Positions 37,900 through 43,414 of a DNA stretch of 64,000 nt are shown in pieces. How positions within the stretch are numbered: position 1 is the stretch's first letter; every line of letters starts with the position of its first letter. The stretch spans positions 186,001 to 250,000 of the forward strand of contig NZ_PDDM01000003.1 of NCBI RefSeq assembly GCF_002914585.1. Direction: 5' to 3'. This stretch comes from Pseudanabaena sp. BC1403. Its GTDB lineage: Bacteria > Cyanobacteriota > Cyanobacteriia > Pseudanabaenales > Pseudanabaenaceae. The notes under the pieces were generated by a model, which saw nothing but the letters and a program-made list of their open reading frames with translations, searched no databases and was not told where the DNA came from. A program made the translations under genes and the position numbers.

Positions 37900-38754
37900 A
37901 TGAAATCGCCTAAGCAGTCAGTCTCCCAAAAGTTAATGTTCGTTGGCATCGTCATTAGCGTTGCTTTTTTGCTGATGGCGATCGCCACACCATTGCTGCA
38001 AGCGCTGGGGATTTTGACAGATCCCATTGAATTTCTTAGCAATCCGATCCATCAGCCACCATCGCCACAACATTGGTTTGGCACGGATTTACAGGGACAT
38101 GATGTATTTACGAGAACGATCGCAGGTGCTGGTGTCGCATGGCAAGTAACGATCGCCTCAACCGTAATTAGTCTTGTAATCGGCGTACCCTTGGGGATGC
38201 TAAGCGGCTACAAAGGCGGCTGGCTCGATCGCATCTTAGTCTTTTTGATGGATGCCATCTACACGTTGCCGAGTTTATTGCTATCGCTAACGATCGCCTT
38301 TGTTGTCGGTGCTGGGGTCTGGAATGCTGCGATCGCGCTCAGTGTTGCCTATATCCCCCAATATTTTCGGGTGATCCGCAACCAAACTGTGAGTACGAAA
38401 ACCGAAGTTTATATCGAAGCTGCTCAAGCGATCGGTGCTGACACGAAAACAATCTTAATCAAATATCTCGCGCCCAACGTCGTCCAAAGTTTACCCGTAA
38501 TTTTCACCCTCAACGCCGCCGATGCGATTTTGACCCTTGCAGGTTTAGGCTTTTTAGGTTTAGGCATTCCCGAAGATGTCCCTGAATGGGGGCATGATCT
38601 TAAGCAAGCTCTTGACGCACTTTCGACTGGCGAAAATATCTGGTGGACAACAATTTTCCCTGGTTTGGCGATTACTTTAATGACGATCGGTTTATCGCTT
38701 GTAGGTGAAGGCTTGACTCAGAGATTTAGCAGCAAGAAAGAAACAAATGCCTAG
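37900..38754 (+). CDS. ABC transporter permease, oligopeptide/nickel type (DppC/OppC)
   Basis: Inner-membrane permease of 284 residues from ATG 37900 (the TTG at 37891 is less likely). N-terminal transmembrane segment about 15-38, then a periplasmic loop with HWFGTDLQGHDVFTR typical of the DppC family and five further helices. The cytoplasmic EAA loop is EAAQAIGADTKTILIKYLAPN-like (positions about 172-193) and would contact the ATPase. The partner permease, binding protein and ATPases are not in the window, which is common in cyanobacteria. Its last 8 nt overlap hicA. Confidence 0.9.
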   Translation: MKSPKQSVSQKLMFVGIVISVAFLLMAIATPLLQALGILTDPIEFLSNPIHQPPSPQHWFGTDLQGHDVFTRTIAGAGVAWQVTIASTVISLVIGVPLGMLSGYKGGWLDRILVFLMDAIYTLPSLLLSLTIAFVVGAGVWNAAIALSVAYIPQYFRVIRNQTVSTKTEVYIEAAQAIGADTKTILIKYLAPNVVQSLPVIFTLNAADAILTLAGLGFLGLGIPEDVPEWGHDLKQALDALSTGENIWWTTIFPGLAITLMTIGLSLVGEGLTQRFSSKKETNA

Positions 38755-38974
38755 AAAAATTCGGGAATTCAAAGCCCAAGTTGCGCGTGAGGGATTCGTT
38801 TATTTGCCCAAACGGGGTAAGGGTAGTCATGAGCGCTGGCGACACCCTATGCTCAGTCAAACGTTAACTATTTCGGGTAAGGATGGTGATGATGTACCAA
38901 TATACTTAGAGAAGCAACTCGCAAAATTATTGGATGCAATCAAGAAGCTAGGGAATCAGGAGGAGGATTTATGA
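38747..38974 (+). CDS. hicA: HicA-family mRNA interferase toxin
   Basis: 75-residue toxin of the double-stranded-RNA-binding fold that cleaves mRNA and stalls growth unless bound by HicB. The catalytic histidine is in KGSHERW, inside the GKGSH motif, and the fold closes with the helix LEKQLAKLLDAI. It overlaps the preceding permease gene by 8 nt and the antitoxin hicB by 4 nt (ATGA). Toxin-first order is normal for HicAB. Confidence 0.9.
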   Translation: MPRKIREFKAQVAREGFVYLPKRGKGSHERWRHPMLSQTLTISGKDGDDVPIYLEKQLAKLLDAIKKLGNQEEDL

Positions 38975-39189
38975 ACAGATACAGTATGAATGTTCAATGG
39001 TCTGAGGCAGATCACTTATTTCTAGTCACGATTCCAGAATTTGCCGATCTCGTTGTCATGCCTTGTACGCATGGCGAAACTCGTGAGCAGGCAATTCATA
39101 ATGGTGAAGAGGTTATTGAAATGTACCTAGAAGCTTGGCAAATGGAAGGTGAATCTATTCCTGAGCCGAAGATACTTCAAGCTGTTTAG
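38971..39189 (+). CDS. hicB: HicB-family antitoxin
   Basis: 72 residues with the partial RNase H fold of HicB: SMNVQWSEADHLFLVTIPEF, then the ETREQAIHNGEEVIEMYLEAW helix. No C-terminal ribbon-helix-helix or HTH domain is present, so it may not repress its own promoter; it ends just after PEPKILQAV. Translationally coupled to hicA through ATGA. Confidence 0.9.
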   Translation: MNRYSMNVQWSEADHLFLVTIPEFADLVVMPCTHGETREQAIHNGEEVIEMYLEAWQMEGESIPEPKILQAV

Positions 39190-39217
39190 CGATGTTCAAG
39201 TGCGATCAGCGATCCAC

Positions 39218-39338
39218 GTAGGGTACGTTAATGAAATGTAACTCACCTTTTTAATGTTTTAATGTCAATTAAATGAACCTTTTCCAACCTTTTGCATGAC
39301 AATTGTTTGTGCGTTACGCTACGCTAATACACCCTACT
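39218..39338. repeat. REP pair (BIME) copy A
   Basis: Begins GTAGGGTACGTTA, answered by TAACTCACC eight nt later (first hairpin), then about 60 nt, and ends GTGCGTTACGCTACGCTAA..CACCCTAC, the inverted second hairpin with GTAG on the opposite strand. Same layout as the copies flanking the RAYT gene. Follows hicB by 28 nt. Confidence 0.8.
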
Positions 39339-39440
39339 GGAACGTTTCATCTAAAATAGTGTATTAGAAAAGTACTATAGATTTTACAATCTAAGAATTT
39401 AAGCCGAAATCTATTGCACTATTTTAGATGAAACAGTCCA
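39338..39440. repeat. Palindromic element 1 of a tandem pair
   Basis: Arms GTTTCATCTAAAATAGTG (39344-39361) and 39417-39434 pair perfectly over 18 bp; outer TGGA..TCCA extends the match. Inside is AATCTATTGCA, shared with element 2. No coding potential. Confidence 0.65.
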
Positions 39441-39444
39441 CTAC

Positions 39445-39547
39445 TGGATAGACATGGCTAATTTGGTGCTTTAGGAAAATCTTAGAGTGTTGATACAGTA
39501 GGTATTTAACCTAAAATCTATTGCATCATTTTAGATGTGTCTATCCA
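39445..39547. repeat. Palindromic element 2 of a tandem pair
   Basis: Same length and internal motif (AATCTATTGCATCATTTTAGAT) as element 1, but the terminal arms are different: TGGATAGACA (39445-39454) pairs with TGTCTATCCA (39538-39547). The ends changed together, keeping complementarity. Confidence 0.65.
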
Positions 39548-39829
39548 CTACTTGCTAATACACAGTTAGATATCTGTGTATCTCTTGAACATCTGGTTTT
39601 TCAATTTAAGATGCTATGATACAATGCAATGGAAATGAGGTTATCCGCAAGTCCATATAAAATTTTTTCTGCTTAATGAGCGTGCCAAAGAAAGAGTAGA
39701 TAAAAATACGGATGTTAAGCATTGGTGTCTGGCAAATGTCTGATAACACAGTAAGTCCTCTTAAATTTGGGATATCACTGTTATTAGCTGTTCCAAAAAT
39801 AAAGTTTTATCTGCGGAGGTTAACAAAGA
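39548..39829. other. Non-coding stretch before the coiled-coil gene
   Basis: No gene seen. A small ACACAGTTAGATATCTGTGT palindrome lies at about 39560-39579. The last part holds the GGAGG (39815-39819) that serves the GTG start at 39830. Promoter not resolved. Confidence 0.4.
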
Positions 39830-40444
39830 GTGTTTTTAGGAGATAGAGGAGAGGTAAAGGCATTAAAGTCAGAGATCAAAGCCTTACAGGTTAAGATTAC
39901 AGCTTTAGAAGAAAAGATAGAGCATCAAAATAAAAGAATTTTAGACCATATCAGAATAAACTTAGATTATTTAAAAGAGATGACTGATCGTCTTTTCAAA
40001 AGTGACAGTAAAAATCGAGAACTTATTGAGAGAGCTATTACAGTGGCAGAAGAAAACCAGATGCAGATTGGTCAGATTAAGAATAACCAAATTAGCATTA
40101 TGTCTCCAGGAGGTATCAATACTGTTACCGACATGAGTGTCAATCATATTAATCAAAACATAGATATTGATTCCAAGACAAAACAGACTTTAGCTGAAGC
40201 TGCAAAAGAAATTCAAGATCTATTAGAGCAGTTAAGCAAAATCTACCCAACTACAACAACAGCAGAGAAGGGTAGTATTGCAGTAAAAGCAATGGAAGAG
40301 ATTGAGAAAAAGCCAAATACCAAGAGTAAAATCCTTAAGGCATTGAAAGTTGGTGGTGCAGCAGCTCTGATGGAACTTACCAATAATCCTATTGTCAAAA
40401 TTCTGACTCCAATGCTGGAGAGCCTTTTAGACAACGGTCAATAG
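39830..40444 (+). CDS. Coiled-coil protein with conserved cyanobacterial C-terminal module
   Basis: 204 residues from GTG 39830, supported by GGAGG ten nt upstream. The first ~80 residues are Lys/Glu-rich coiled coil. Residues about 90-115 (SPGGINTVTDMSVNHINQNI) are a polar linker. The last ~85 residues (AEAAKEIQDLLEQLSKIYP..GGAAALMELTNNPIVK) match a helical module I recall at the C-terminus of various cyanobacterial proteins, including pentapeptide-repeat ones; I do not know its function. No signal peptide or membrane segment. Sits inside the RAYT/TA island. Confidence 0.75.
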   Translation: MFLGDRGEVKALKSEIKALQVKITALEEKIEHQNKRILDHIRINLDYLKEMTDRLFKSDSKNRELIERAITVAEENQMQIGQIKNNQISIMSPGGINTVTDMSVNHINQNIDIDSKTKQTLAEAAKEIQDLLEQLSKIYPTTTTAEKGSIAVKAMEEIEKKPNTKSKILKALKVGGAAALMELTNNPIVKILTPMLESLLDNGQ

Positions 40445-40462
40445 AGTGAAATTGCCGATCGC

Positions 40463-40574
40463 GTAGGGTGCGTTAATGAAATGTAACGCACCTTTTTAAC
40501 ATCAATTAAATAAACCTTTTCCAACCTTTTATATAACAAATGTTTGTGCGTTACGCTACGCTAACACACTCTAC
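40463..40574. repeat. REP pair (BIME) copy B, 3' flank of the RAYT gene
   Basis: GTAGGGTGCGTTA with TAACGCACC eight nt on gives a 9-bp stem headed by GTAG; the distal half GTGCGTTACGCTACGCTAACACACTCTAC is its inverted partner (40546-40574). It ends 9 nt from the RAYT stop codon. Confidence 0.85.
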
Positions 40575-40582
40575 GGGGCTGG

Positions 40583-41134
40583 TTATTCGTCCCAAATGTC
40601 TTGGGGCTTTTCTGTAACTTCTGTGGCTCCCCAATCGGGTGGATATTGTCCCTGTGCGATAAAACGATGAATGCTGGAAAATTGCCAATCTTCTGCTTTT
40701 GCACATAATCCATGTCGTACAGGATTGTAATGAATATAATCGCAATGTAGAGCATAATCTCGCTCATCTCGGATTAGATGCTCCCAAAAACGACGCTGCC
40801 ATAGATTCTTTTCTTGTCGTTTTTGTCGCGATCGCGAAACTTCTGCATTAATTCCTAATTGATCGCCATAATGTTTGGTTACATAGGTTTTGATTAATCG
40901 TAATCTTACCGAAAAATCCTTGTCTTCTTCTGGCAACGTCCACAGACAATGGAAATGATCGGGCAATAGAACAAAAGCATTTATTTCAAATGGATATTTC
41001 TCTCGAACTTTAGCGATCGCCTCGCGCAATCCTTTACGTCCCAAATCACTACAAAGCCAAGGAATTCTCTGATAGGTGACTTGGGTAATAAAATAAGTTC
41101 CTTCTGTAATTACTGGTCTTCGATAATTTGACAT
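40583..41134 (-). CDS. REP-associated tyrosine transposase (RAYT, Y1/HUH)
   Basis: 183-residue single-strand transposase of the IS200/IS605-like superfamily. The HUH metal site is HFH at residues 60-62 (LLPDHFHCLW); the nucleophilic tyrosine is in DYIHYNPV (Tyr133 or Tyr136). The N-terminal YRRPVITEGTYFITQVTYQR strand is typical of RAYTs. The gene lies between two REP pairs, starting 5 nt from copy C and ending 9 nt from copy B, as expected for a RAYT with its cognate REPs. Reading frame is intact and motifs are complete, so it may be active. Confidence 0.92.
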   Translation of the reverse strand: MSNYRRPVITEGTYFITQVTYQRIPWLCSDLGRKGLREAIAKVREKYPFEINAFVLLPDHFHCLWTLPEEDKDFSVRLRLIKTYVTKHYGDQLGINAEVSRSRQKRQEKNLWQRRFWEHLIRDERDYALHCDYIHYNPVRHGLCAKAEDWQFSSIHRFIAQGQYPPDWGATEVTEKPQDIWDE

Positions 41135-41139
41135 TTCGC

Positions 41140-41219
41140 GTAGGGTGCGTTAATGAAATGTAACGCACCTTTCTGATGATTTTAGTAGGGTGCGTTACGC
41201 TACGCTAACACACCCTACT
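41140..41219. repeat. REP pair (BIME) copy C, 5' flank of the RAYT gene
   Basis: Compact form: the two inverted REPs are separated by only about 10 nt (GTAGGGTGCGTTA..TAACGCACC, then GTAGGGTGCGTTACGC..CACCCTAC). The RAYT start codon is 5 nt away, so the REP may overlap the gene's leader. Confidence 0.85.
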
Positions 41220-41314
41220 TGGTTTGAGATGTATTGCGATCGCTGATTTTTTTTAGAAAGCTTGATAACGATATAATCTAAATAAAGACTGCGTAAAAAA
41301 GGAAACAAATAGCC

Positions 41315-41542
41315 ATGAGCCAAGTAGAAATCACAGAATCTTTGCTAACTAGCACGGGTTTTTATAGACTATTTCAAACCTTACCCCTAGAAATCCGACA
41401 AGGCTTTCTACAACTTTTATTTCAAAATAATTCATCTGAATTAGAAGACTCTATCCTTTATTTAGCTTGTGAAAATTCTCGTAAAGAAGGTTTTTTATCT
41501 GAATTAGAGTCTCAATCTCTCTTGGAGAGTTTGCCTCAATGA
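41315..41542 (+). CDS. Probable antitoxin partner of the RelE-like toxin
   Basis: 75 residues, acidic, no recognised DNA-binding fold. The C-terminal half (LEDSILYLACENSRKEGFLSELE) is predicted helical and Glu-rich, suited to wrapping a toxin. Its stop overlaps the next start by 4 nt (ATGA), and antitoxin-first order with a small toxin is classic for type II systems. Antitoxin role is inferred from position. Confidence 0.7.
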   Translation: MSQVEITESLLTSTGFYRLFQTLPLEIRQGFLQLLFQNNSSELEDSILYLACENSRKEGFLSELESQSLLESLPQ

Positions 41543-41808
41543 AATATCAAATTGCCAAACGCTTCAAAAAAGATTTAGACAAAATCAACGACCAAAAGAT
41601 TCTCGCAAAAGTCAGAAAATGTATTGAAGCAATTGGAACTTCTCAAACACTGTCCGAAATTCCAGATCTTGAGCCATTAAAAGGGTTTTCGGGATACTAT
41701 CGCATTAAATTTGATTACAGCTATCGTATTGGGATTTTTTGGGATGGAGAAGTTATTGAAATTCTTAAAATAGAAAGTCGTGAGGGATTTTACAAAAATT
41801 TCCCTTGA
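41539..41808 (+). CDS. RelE/ParE-superfamily toxin
   Basis: 89 residues. The pattern KRFKKDLDKINDQKILAKVRKCIEAI, then LEPLKGFSGYYRIKFDYSYRIGIFWDGEVIEIL, is the RelE/ParE fold with the central GYYRI-x-F-DYSYRI strand pair. C-terminal basic-aromatic residues (ESREGFYKNFP) may form the ribonuclease site. Likely a ribosome-dependent mRNA nuclease, though a ParE-type gyrase poison cannot be excluded by eye. Coupled to the upstream antitoxin. Confidence 0.85.
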   Translation: MKYQIAKRFKKDLDKINDQKILAKVRKCIEAIGTSQTLSEIPDLEPLKGFSGYYRIKFDYSYRIGIFWDGEVIEILKIESREGFYKNFP

Positions 41809-41956
41809 TTGCCTTATACATACATAGTTATCAATTGCCCAATCTTGATGAACCTACAAAACAACTGCAAGTGCTTGTTAATGAGTTAATTATAATGTGG
41901 AAGATCTAAATCTATAAATTCAGGTAAATTTTTTAGCTAATGACTTGGAGTTTTTG

Positions 41957-42415
41957 ATGCATGAAGTCCTCGCACAAGGTAGAAATGGCATAGAAATCAT
42001 GCTGAGAGACGAAGATGGTAATTTATTGCCAGCCAGCATTGATACAGGTTGTCGTGATTGGACAGATACGGATGGTCGTCATACTGATTGTCTTATCAAG
42101 TTATCTTGGGCTGGTGGTGTGATTGAAGAAACGGATTGGAACTATTTTACATCATTTAAGAAGGTGAGAAAGCGGCTTGCGATTCATGGTCTTTTACCTG
42201 TGTGTTATGGAGCAAGTCGGCGAGTCATACTAACTGGGATGGCTATAGATATGAGCTTAGGGGCGAAGATATGGCAGGTAAATCAAGATGATGAGATGTA
42301 TCACCCCCTCGTATACATTTTTAAGACAGGAGAAGATGTAGAGCCTGTCAGCGTTGAAGAGCAGGAGAATTTCCAAGCAGAATGGTGGAAGCGAAAGCAA
42401 GAACAATTAGCGTAA
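41957..42415 (+). CDS. Hypothetical protein
   Basis: 152 residues from ATG 41957 (a TTG at 41945 is an alternative). No signal peptide or membrane segment. Asp/Trp-rich: CRDWTDTDGRHTDC, ETDWNYF and a C-terminal QAEWWKRKQEQLA helix. Cysteines in DTGCRDW and HTDCLIK are 12 residues apart and could bind metal or pair. I do not recognise a family. In the TA/REP island, followed by BIME copy D. Confidence 0.6.
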   Translation: MHEVLAQGRNGIEIMLRDEDGNLLPASIDTGCRDWTDTDGRHTDCLIKLSWAGGVIEETDWNYFTSFKKVRKRLAIHGLLPVCYGASRRVILTGMAIDMSLGAKIWQVNQDDEMYHPLVYIFKTGEDVEPVSVEEQENFQAEWWKRKQEQLA

Positions 42416-42484
42416 CAGAACAACTCAGATACATTGGACTAACTGGATTGAGCTATAAATTAGTGAAGTGCGATCGCTGATCAT

Positions 42485-42598
42485 GTAGGGTGCGTTAAAT
42501 GAAATGTAACGTACCTTTTGAATGTCAATTAAATGAACCTTTTACAACCTTTTCGATAACAAATGTTTGTGCGTTATGCTAGGCTAGCGCACCCTACT
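42485..42598. repeat. REP pair (BIME) copy D
   Basis: GTAGGGTGCGTTAAATGAAATGTAACG start and GTGCGTTATGCTAGGCTAGCGCACCCTAC end (42570-42598). The internal spacer resembles that of copies A and B (AATGTCAATTAAATGAACCTTTT). A few substitutions weaken both stems. Confidence 0.8.
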
Positions 42599-42649
42599 GA
42601 ATACTTATTATATAAGGCGGCAGGGCTTGGAAATCTCGAAGGAAGATAG

Positions 42650-42775
42650 GCAGATTTTGCAGTTTATCCTCGAATTCCAACCATCACTAAAGATAAAGAA
42701 GCCATGGGAGCTTGGGTAAGCTTTTACAGGAATTGGATCAGTCGAGAATTTTTTTCTAATTGTAAGTCATGCTAA
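42650..42775 (+). pseudogene. Possible 3' remnant of a degraded gene
   Basis: A 41-codon frame after an in-frame TAG reads ADFAVYPRIPTITKDKEA and continues to FYRNWISREFF, with protein-like composition but no start codon at its left end. Its stop overlaps the ATG of the lipoprotein gene at 42769. Could be the tail of a gene cut by BIME copy D, or chance. Confidence 0.25.
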
Positions 42776-43263
42776 ATAAAAAATTTATAATAGCTACGGT
42801 TGCTTTCATCGTCGCATCTTATCTTAGTGGATGCACTTCTACCGAAGATGGCGTTCCCCCGCAAGTCTGGAGTAAATACAAGTTGGTAATGGCAGAAGAA
42901 TACAAGCCAGCAAAATATCCTAAAGATGTGTTGAGATGCCATTACACTGTTCGCAAAGAAACTGTAGAAGAAATCGAACAATTTTTTCAGGCGCAATTAC
43001 GAAAAAATCGGTGGTCTAGATTTAAAGCCAGAGAAAATGAAGCCTATGCAGACTTAAGGAAAAAATTACCTTATACGATTTCTTTTGGCGGTAATGGGGA
43101 AGAAAATCCAATAGTACGTTTCGGCGATGGAGTAATCTTAGTAAGTACAAATGAGTATTTGGGAGGGCAAAGATTTATTAAAATCTCGCCTGAAGAAGAA
43201 CGCCAACTATTATTGATTACAGGCATGGATGGAAGTAGATCTTATACAAATTGTAGCAATTAG
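42769..43263 (+). CDS. Putative lipoprotein of unknown function
   Basis: 164 residues. Signal peptide with a lipobox YLSGC, so Cys22 should be lipidated; the following Thr-Ser is compatible with outer-membrane sorting. The mature part is charged, with a helix HYTVRKETVEEIEQFFQAQLRKNRW and a DLRKKLPYTISFGG strand. No family recognised. Flanked by BIME copies D and E. Confidence 0.7.
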   Translation: MLNKKFIIATVAFIVASYLSGCTSTEDGVPPQVWSKYKLVMAEEYKPAKYPKDVLRCHYTVRKETVEEIEQFFQAQLRKNRWSRFKARENEAYADLRKKLPYTISFGGNGEENPIVRFGDGVILVSTNEYLGGQRFIKISPEEERQLLLITGMDGSRSYTNCSN

Positions 43264-43333
43264 CAAGGGTTGATCGCAAAGATAAATCCTTTAACAAAAT
43301 CGCAGGATTTGAATATTCGTGACAGCCGATCGC

Positions 43334-43414
43334 GTAGGGCTCGTTAATGAAATGTAACGCACCTTTCTAATGCTAAATGTTTGAGTGCGTTACGCTACGC
43401 TAACTCACCCTACT
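43334..43414. repeat. REP pair (BIME) copy E
   Basis: Compact form: GTAGGGCTCGTTAATGAAATGTAACGC start and GTGCGTTACGCTACGCTAACTCACCCTAC end, about 14 nt apart. Last of the five copies; the next gene (lptC) is housekeeping, so it marks the right edge of the island. Confidence 0.8.

Follow-up and report, generated by a model that had tools for sequence, protein, structure and literature searches.

A probable REPtron of Pseudanabaena sp. BC1403 and the fixed spacing of HIP1 ahead of its GTAG repeats

Introduction

The 64-kb stretch of Pseudanabaena sp. BC1403 DNA analysed herein (the window) carries a gene for a REP-associated tyrosine transposase (RAYT) amid five pairs of GTAG-headed repeats, and the question is raised of whether the transposase and the repeats form one system and, if so, how the repeats came to stand where they do. 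We consider, at a probability of about 0.8, that the window holds a REPtron, namely a domesticated HUH RAYT together with five REPINs: a single RAYT is flanked by its own GTAG REPs, of which copies are present elsewhere in the genome. Since GTAG REPs and RAYTs have already been described in Cyanobacteria (PMC3733652, PMC6006769), the presence of a REPtron in this genome is not new. The REPtron itself is ordinary; what seems new, provided that the target reading discussed below holds, is the anchoring of its REPs at HIP1.

The RAYT protein and its family

The open reading frame at 40583-41134 on the minus strand was predicted to encode an intact HUH/tyrosine transposase, and it is indeed intact, coding for a TnpA-REP protein of 183 aa that belongs to group 2 (subclass 2.2-like). 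The protein is matched above the cut-off by NF047646 (NCBIfam 'REP-associated tyrosine transposase'; E=1.4e-55), by Y1_Tnp, and by the crystallised TnpA-REP of E. coli, 4ER8 (E=3.7e-41). With the roles of residues in GTAG recognition and catalysis taken from PMC6006769, alignment with 4ER8 indicated that the catalytic set of HUH, Y115 and N119 is kept as DHFH, Y133 within YIHYNP, and N137, and that W94, Q95, E100, H101 and R104 correspond to W112, Q113, E118, H119 and R122 of the window RAYT. The HUH motif, the catalytic tyrosine within YI-NP and the GTAG-contact residues are all those of subclass 2.2, and the SS motif tabulated for the C-terminal tail of group 2 (subclass 2.2; PMC6006769) is also found, WQFSSIHRF aligning with WPFSTFHR of 4ER8. 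The proteobacterial distribution of subclass 2.2, which concerns occurrence and is no defining property, does not hold for this protein, nested as it is in a 22-row cyanobacterial clade (support 93/86). The RAYT is under purifying selection, its dN/dS being about 0.1 (0.095-0.164 for the window RAYT against its relatives, and 0.07-0.17 over all computable comparisons). Its assignment to the IS200/IS605 insertion sequences was rejected, as the genome contains one copy plus a 29% identical paralog and not several near-identical copies. This paralog, RAYT 2 (L058 5776-6255; G000 C30:35775-36254), has another GTAG repeat, GTAGGGGTAGAGCAT...ATGCTCTACCC, on both sides, and the two RAYTs of the genome, each with its own REP, fit the one-RAYT-one-REP rule (PMC6006769).

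Almost all related cyanobacterial RAYTs inspected have REPs at their flanks, as do some RAYTs outside the phylum, and the sequence of the REP stem follows the RAYT tree: GGGTGCGTTA is found in the clade of the window RAYT, GGATGCGTTA in the Nostoc/Calothrix clade, and GGTTGGGTT in a second, distant cyanobacterial clade. This co-variation, together with the conserved GTAG-contact and catalytic residues, agrees with the original prediction that the RAYT/GTAG-REP system of Proteobacteria is also present in a cyanobacterium, while the conserved tetranucleotide, given there as GTAG/GGAG, is GTAG/GTGG in the literature (PMC6006769). The RAYT of one genome, G010, groups with that of Argonema (L272; support 100/92), a member of another family, more closely than with those of its own genus, and is therefore likely to have been transferred horizontally.

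Organization of the five REP pairs

All five REP pairs, arranged head to head, were detected at the predicted places, in plus-strand orientation. Two of them bracket the RAYT gene and have perfect left arms: pair B (40463-40574; long spacer) lies 8 nt past the RAYT stop, and pair C (41140-41218; short spacer) lies 5 nt before its start. The stems are decayed in the remaining three, that is, pair A after hicB (39218-39337; long spacer), pair D (42485-42597; long spacer) and pair E (43334-43413; short spacer). The left arm consists of GTAG plus GGTGCGTTA-ATGAAATG-TAACGCACC, or a decayed copy thereof, while the right arm, read on the minus strand, is GTAGGGTGTGTTAGCGTAGCGTAACGCAC and begins with GTAGGGTGTGTTAGCGTAGCG; each pair is a heterodimer, because the left loop ATGAAATG and the right arm GTAGGGTGTGTTAGCGTAGCG differ. 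Two inverted REPs with GTAG facing outward thus make up the repeated unit, as in a REPIN. The right arm of pair C (41185-41218) carries GTAG on both strands, and the right flank of pair E, TTGATTTGAG, is common to the C pairs of relatives. An ATGAAAT-type arm was also found at the RAYT loci of Dolichospermum (L273, facing an AGCG-type arm) and Crocosphaera (L278).

Two spacer forms had been predicted, and both exist, with about 53-61 nt between the arms of A, B and D and about 20 nt in C and E, but the short form is not 'nearly without' a spacer. The left arm of B, identical to that of C, gives a perfect hairpin of 9 bp (-9.2 kcal/mol, z -6), whereas in A, D and E mismatches or insertions interrupt the left-arm stem, which is no longer formed in the folds. 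The pairs are 73-88% identical to one another and not near-identical, and the claim of a system that is probably still active, which rested on near-identity, is not borne out. Since A, D and E are decayed and the RAYT-flanking B and C are intact, the cluster in the window is old, the copies adjoining the RAYT being the maintained ones.

Single left arms occur besides the pairs. Several of them precede T-runs and are situated between the end of a gene and a promoter-like TATAAT. Such an arrangement, and the location of pair A 28 nt after hicB, would be expected if the repeats were kept mainly as RNA hairpins, either terminators or 3' stabilisers, an explanation to which we attach very little probability, for it accounts neither for the conservation of GTAG nor for the bracketing of the RAYT nor for the spacing of HIP1.

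REPs in the genome and in the genus

The counts of REPs in genomes come from pattern searches. The 23-nt core of the left arm gave 14 matches (up to 3 mismatches) in the 5.5-Mb genome and the reversed-pattern control gave 0, and 5 of the 14 lie inside 4.2 kb of the window (P about 4e-10), so that the cluster is not due to chance. A similar clustering is seen in G010, which carries its RAYT, 72% identical to that of the window, at another location: of its 24 cores, 7 are no more than about 8.3 kb away from the gene.

An intact RAYT of the window type was found in 5 of the 26 genomes of the genus (G000, the source genome, and G008, G010, G012 and G029); in two others (G011, G030) the gene carries in-frame stops, and in three (G020, G027, G028) only fragments or a broken copy are left. 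In G000, G011, G012, G020 and G030, hisA and a permease gene are found a few kb upstream of the RAYT, whose location in G029 is different. The layout is kept in the relatives. The short pair is 5' of the RAYT, at a distance of 18-19 nt from the start codon in G008, G011, G012, G029 and G030, and in most relatives the long pair follows the stop codon at a distance of 8 nt; pair B has a long-form ortholog in G008, G012, G029 and G030. For the same genome pairs the dS of the RAYT (0.21-0.34) is 2-3 times lower than that of hisA (0.60-0.90), and therefore its inheritance may not be purely vertical; the low dS suggests either exchange within the genus or an extra constraint.

Class-A REPs are present in every genome of the genus searched, including those without RAYT, and are nearly absent outside the genus. 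It had been proposed to test whether copy number tracks RAYT presence, and a weak trend in this direction is seen, the median number of class-A cores being 8 with RAYT versus 6 without (p=0.04 raw), but per Mb the difference gives p=0.11; the equal abundance in RAYT-less relatives that had been named as counter-evidence is thus partly observed. The relation being weak, REP copy number was rejected as a marker of RAYT presence. Loss of RAYT followed by slow decay of REPs explains the REPs of RAYT-less genomes. Their persistence, however, together with the decay of A, D and E and with the flanks of the RAYT block, which are different in every genome compared, would also be expected if the REPs were fossils that segmental duplication and REP-REP recombination had spread through a hotspot rich in toxin-antitoxin genes, while the RAYT was retained for some other role and had ceased to move them. 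We regard this explanation as unlikely, in view of the co-variation of RAYT and REP stem over phyla and of the situation in G010, where 13 copies, found in diverse surroundings, have the same 23-nt core and the REP family has therefore moved recently.

HIP1 at a fixed distance from GTAG

HIP1 is the cyanobacterial octamer GCGATCGC, and the window contains 107 HIP1 sites versus 0.5 expected from base composition. After alignment of the REPs with their flanks, a conserved 18-nt head, AGTGCGATCGCCGATCTT, was recognized before GTAG, and this head contains HIP1. Among 74 class-A REPs, counted as distinct upstream flanks with the loci fetched by the head itself left out, HIP1 (up to 1 mismatch) starts exactly at -15 from GTAG in 43, versus an expectation of 0.88 summed over the four positions tested, and 31 are without HIP1 at this position. 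The original prediction contained no link between HIP1 and REPs, and our literature search found no report placing the two side by side. At the RAYT loci of named cyanobacteria, GCGATCG occupies -16 or -15 in 14 of 76 GTAG hairpins (0.17 expected), in contrast to 0 of 120 GTAG hairpins at RAYT loci outside Cyanobacteria, and the head was accordingly rejected as an E. coli-like feature. Within the window, the head of pair D (AAGTGCGATCGCTGATCAT, 42466-42484, plus strand) includes an exact HIP1 (42470-42477) 15 nt before GTAG, and that of pair A (39199-39217, plus strand) a degenerate one (AGTGCGATCAGCGATCCAC); B and E keep only CCGATCGC adjoining GTAG, and the head is lost at C. No HIP1 head precedes those class-B homodimer REPs (GTAGGGTGCGTTAGC...) of the genome that were inspected, and hence the link to HIP1 is not general to every REP with that stem.

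As a domesticated single-strand HUH nuclease with the five pairs, each of two unlike REP arms, as its REPINs, the RAYT would, like its E. coli counterpart, bind the hairpin together with GTAG where the DNA is single-stranded (probably on the lagging strand), cut between C and T beside the hairpin and join the REPIN to a new place, and it probably copies the surrounding small hairpin repeats. In this lineage, the insertion point of new copies would be immediately 3' of a sequence that contains HIP1, the consensus being AGTGCGATCGCCGATCTT joined directly to GTAG, and this sequence would mostly be present beforehand and stay as the left flank, like the left target flank of IS200/IS605. With C at -3 and T at -2, the consensus would have a C-T step just 5' of GTAG, compatible with RAYT cleavage, as E. 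coli TnpA-REP cleaves at this dinucleotide (PMC8266576).

Alternatively, the head AGTGCGATCGCCGATCTT could belong to the mobile unit and travel with the REP as its left end. Its 18 nt are conserved over unrelated upstream flanks, the homology between cassette copies often begins exactly at -18, and the head (as 18-nt sequence or 19-mer) is mostly occupied by a REP, as expected of a carried head. REP-free orthologous sites point in the other direction. The alignment of the left flank of the G012 RAYT block with G016, G020, G024 and G025 ends 0-2 nt short of GTAG, and these four read TTTGTATTGCGATCRCTG at the junction and have no REP; at a REP site of the source genome (C1, about 37341), the REP-free orthologs G012, G017, G018 and G023 hold GCGATCGC; and for the REP site of G022 C13, G032 has GTGCGATCGCCGATCTTG and no REP. 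HIP1 is thus present at three REP-free orthologous sites, one of which holds the whole head, and this makes an insertion target likelier than cargo. Furthermore, the identical head precedes the unrelated GTAGGTTGGG REP family in G008, G015 and SU3, and tandem heads are found without REPs. Joined-flank queries gave no clean two-sided empty site, the right flanks differing in all three comparisons, so that an excision footprint or a rearrangement may also be involved. Taken together, the comparisons make it rather probable that HIP1 is the insertion target, and a head carried as cargo appears doubtful.

A wider proposal, which we put forward only tentatively, is that RAYT/REP transposition in Cyanobacteria is directed to HIP1, with the octamer, its single-strand fold or its methylation as the target determinant. 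HIP1 would then serve several RAYT/REP families as the address at which to insert, and its fixed spacing from GTAG would join the choice of REP insertion sites with the retention of many HIP1 sites by cyanobacteria. This spacing spans unrelated genomic contexts, cyanobacterial families and RAYT clades, and offers a target on which RAYT strand transfer can be tested directly.

Genes and elements associated with REPs

A hicA-hicB-like toxin-antitoxin pair (38747-39189, plus strand) adjoins pair A, and an antitoxin-like ORF with a ParE-like toxin (41315-41808, plus strand) lies between C and D; the latter genes are bracketed by REPs in G023 too, and a counterpart of pair A also follows hicB in G017. 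RAYT loci are situated amid toxin-antitoxin genes in the window (38747-43263) and in the RAYT flanks of G010, G012 and G029, the neighbours differing from genome to genome; the types are hicAB and parE-like, and, by eye from translations, BrnT-like and MazEF-like. Directly after pair A, MITE-like nested inverted repeats (CTACTGG..ATTTTAGATG..) extend over 39335-39550, and a similar element adjoins another REP in L021.

Sites similar to attC flank some REP-linked gene pairs. In the relatives' loci L060, L066, L070, L072 and L074, such integron-like sites (GTCTAAC...GTTAGGC/GTTATGC) follow small REP-headed gene pairs, which may represent either a chromosomal integron of the genus or its cassettes. 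Integron cassettes were rejected as the source of the REP units, as the left boundary is the REP head and not attC, and other copies are without attC. A two-gene cassette in L018, L060, L070-L078, L254 and L271 consists of an antitoxin-like ORF of about 91 aa and an aspartic-protease-like DTG-motif protein of about 122 aa; it is preceded by a REP left arm and a T-run, and the upstream homology stops at the HIP1 head. In L042, L048, L051 and L063, REP pairs that are not located at a RAYT 3' end include a stretch of about 30 nt similar to such an end (GAGGTTGGTTATT..AAATTTCTTG), followed by a new HIP1 head, and may be remnants or derivatives of a REPtron.

Comparison with known systems

Elements of IS200/IS605 (IS608) transpose as single strands by means of a Y1 transposase and insert on the 3' side of a target, which then remains as their left flank. 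A guide model has been described for them (PMC8266576), and they differ from the system in the window by a target of 4-5 nt and by the transposase inside the element, the window RAYT being outside its REPINs. With the E. coli REPtron (4ER8, REP/BIME; group 2, subclass 2.2) the window system shares the HUH-Y1 protein, the GTAG-contact residues, the YI-NP motif, the FSS motif in the C-terminal tail, the single copy and the flanking GTAG REPs in heterodimers; unlike it, the window system belongs to a cyanobacterial clade, its REPs are HIP1-anchored, and the genome contains about 14 class-A cores instead of hundreds of copies. To our knowledge, no transposase is known for the SDR5 repeats of Nostoc. 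According to PMC4390886, which cites Elhai 2008, SDR5 inserts between nucleotides 3 and 4 of HIP1; it is thus a tiny repeat at HIP1 sites like the REPs described here, but it lies inside HIP1, whereas REPs of the window type lie 7 nt 3' of an intact HIP1. As in the REPtrons Ma and Mb of Marinomonas MWYL1, where REPs are concentrated close to their RAYT (PMC8266576), the REPs are clustered near the RAYT, but for Marinomonas a recent arrival was inferred (PMC8266576), whereas most pairs of the window cluster are decayed. In Cyanobacteria, GTAG REPs with RAYTs and head-to-head dimers also characterize the GTAG-12, GTAG-15 and GTAG-16 REPs (PMC3733652) and TnpA-REP subclasses 2.4, 2.7 and 2.8 (PMC6006769); compared by protein motif, however, the window RAYT (DHFH, WQ, YIHYNP) fits subclass 2.2 and differs from cyanobacterial subclass 2.8 (NHYH).
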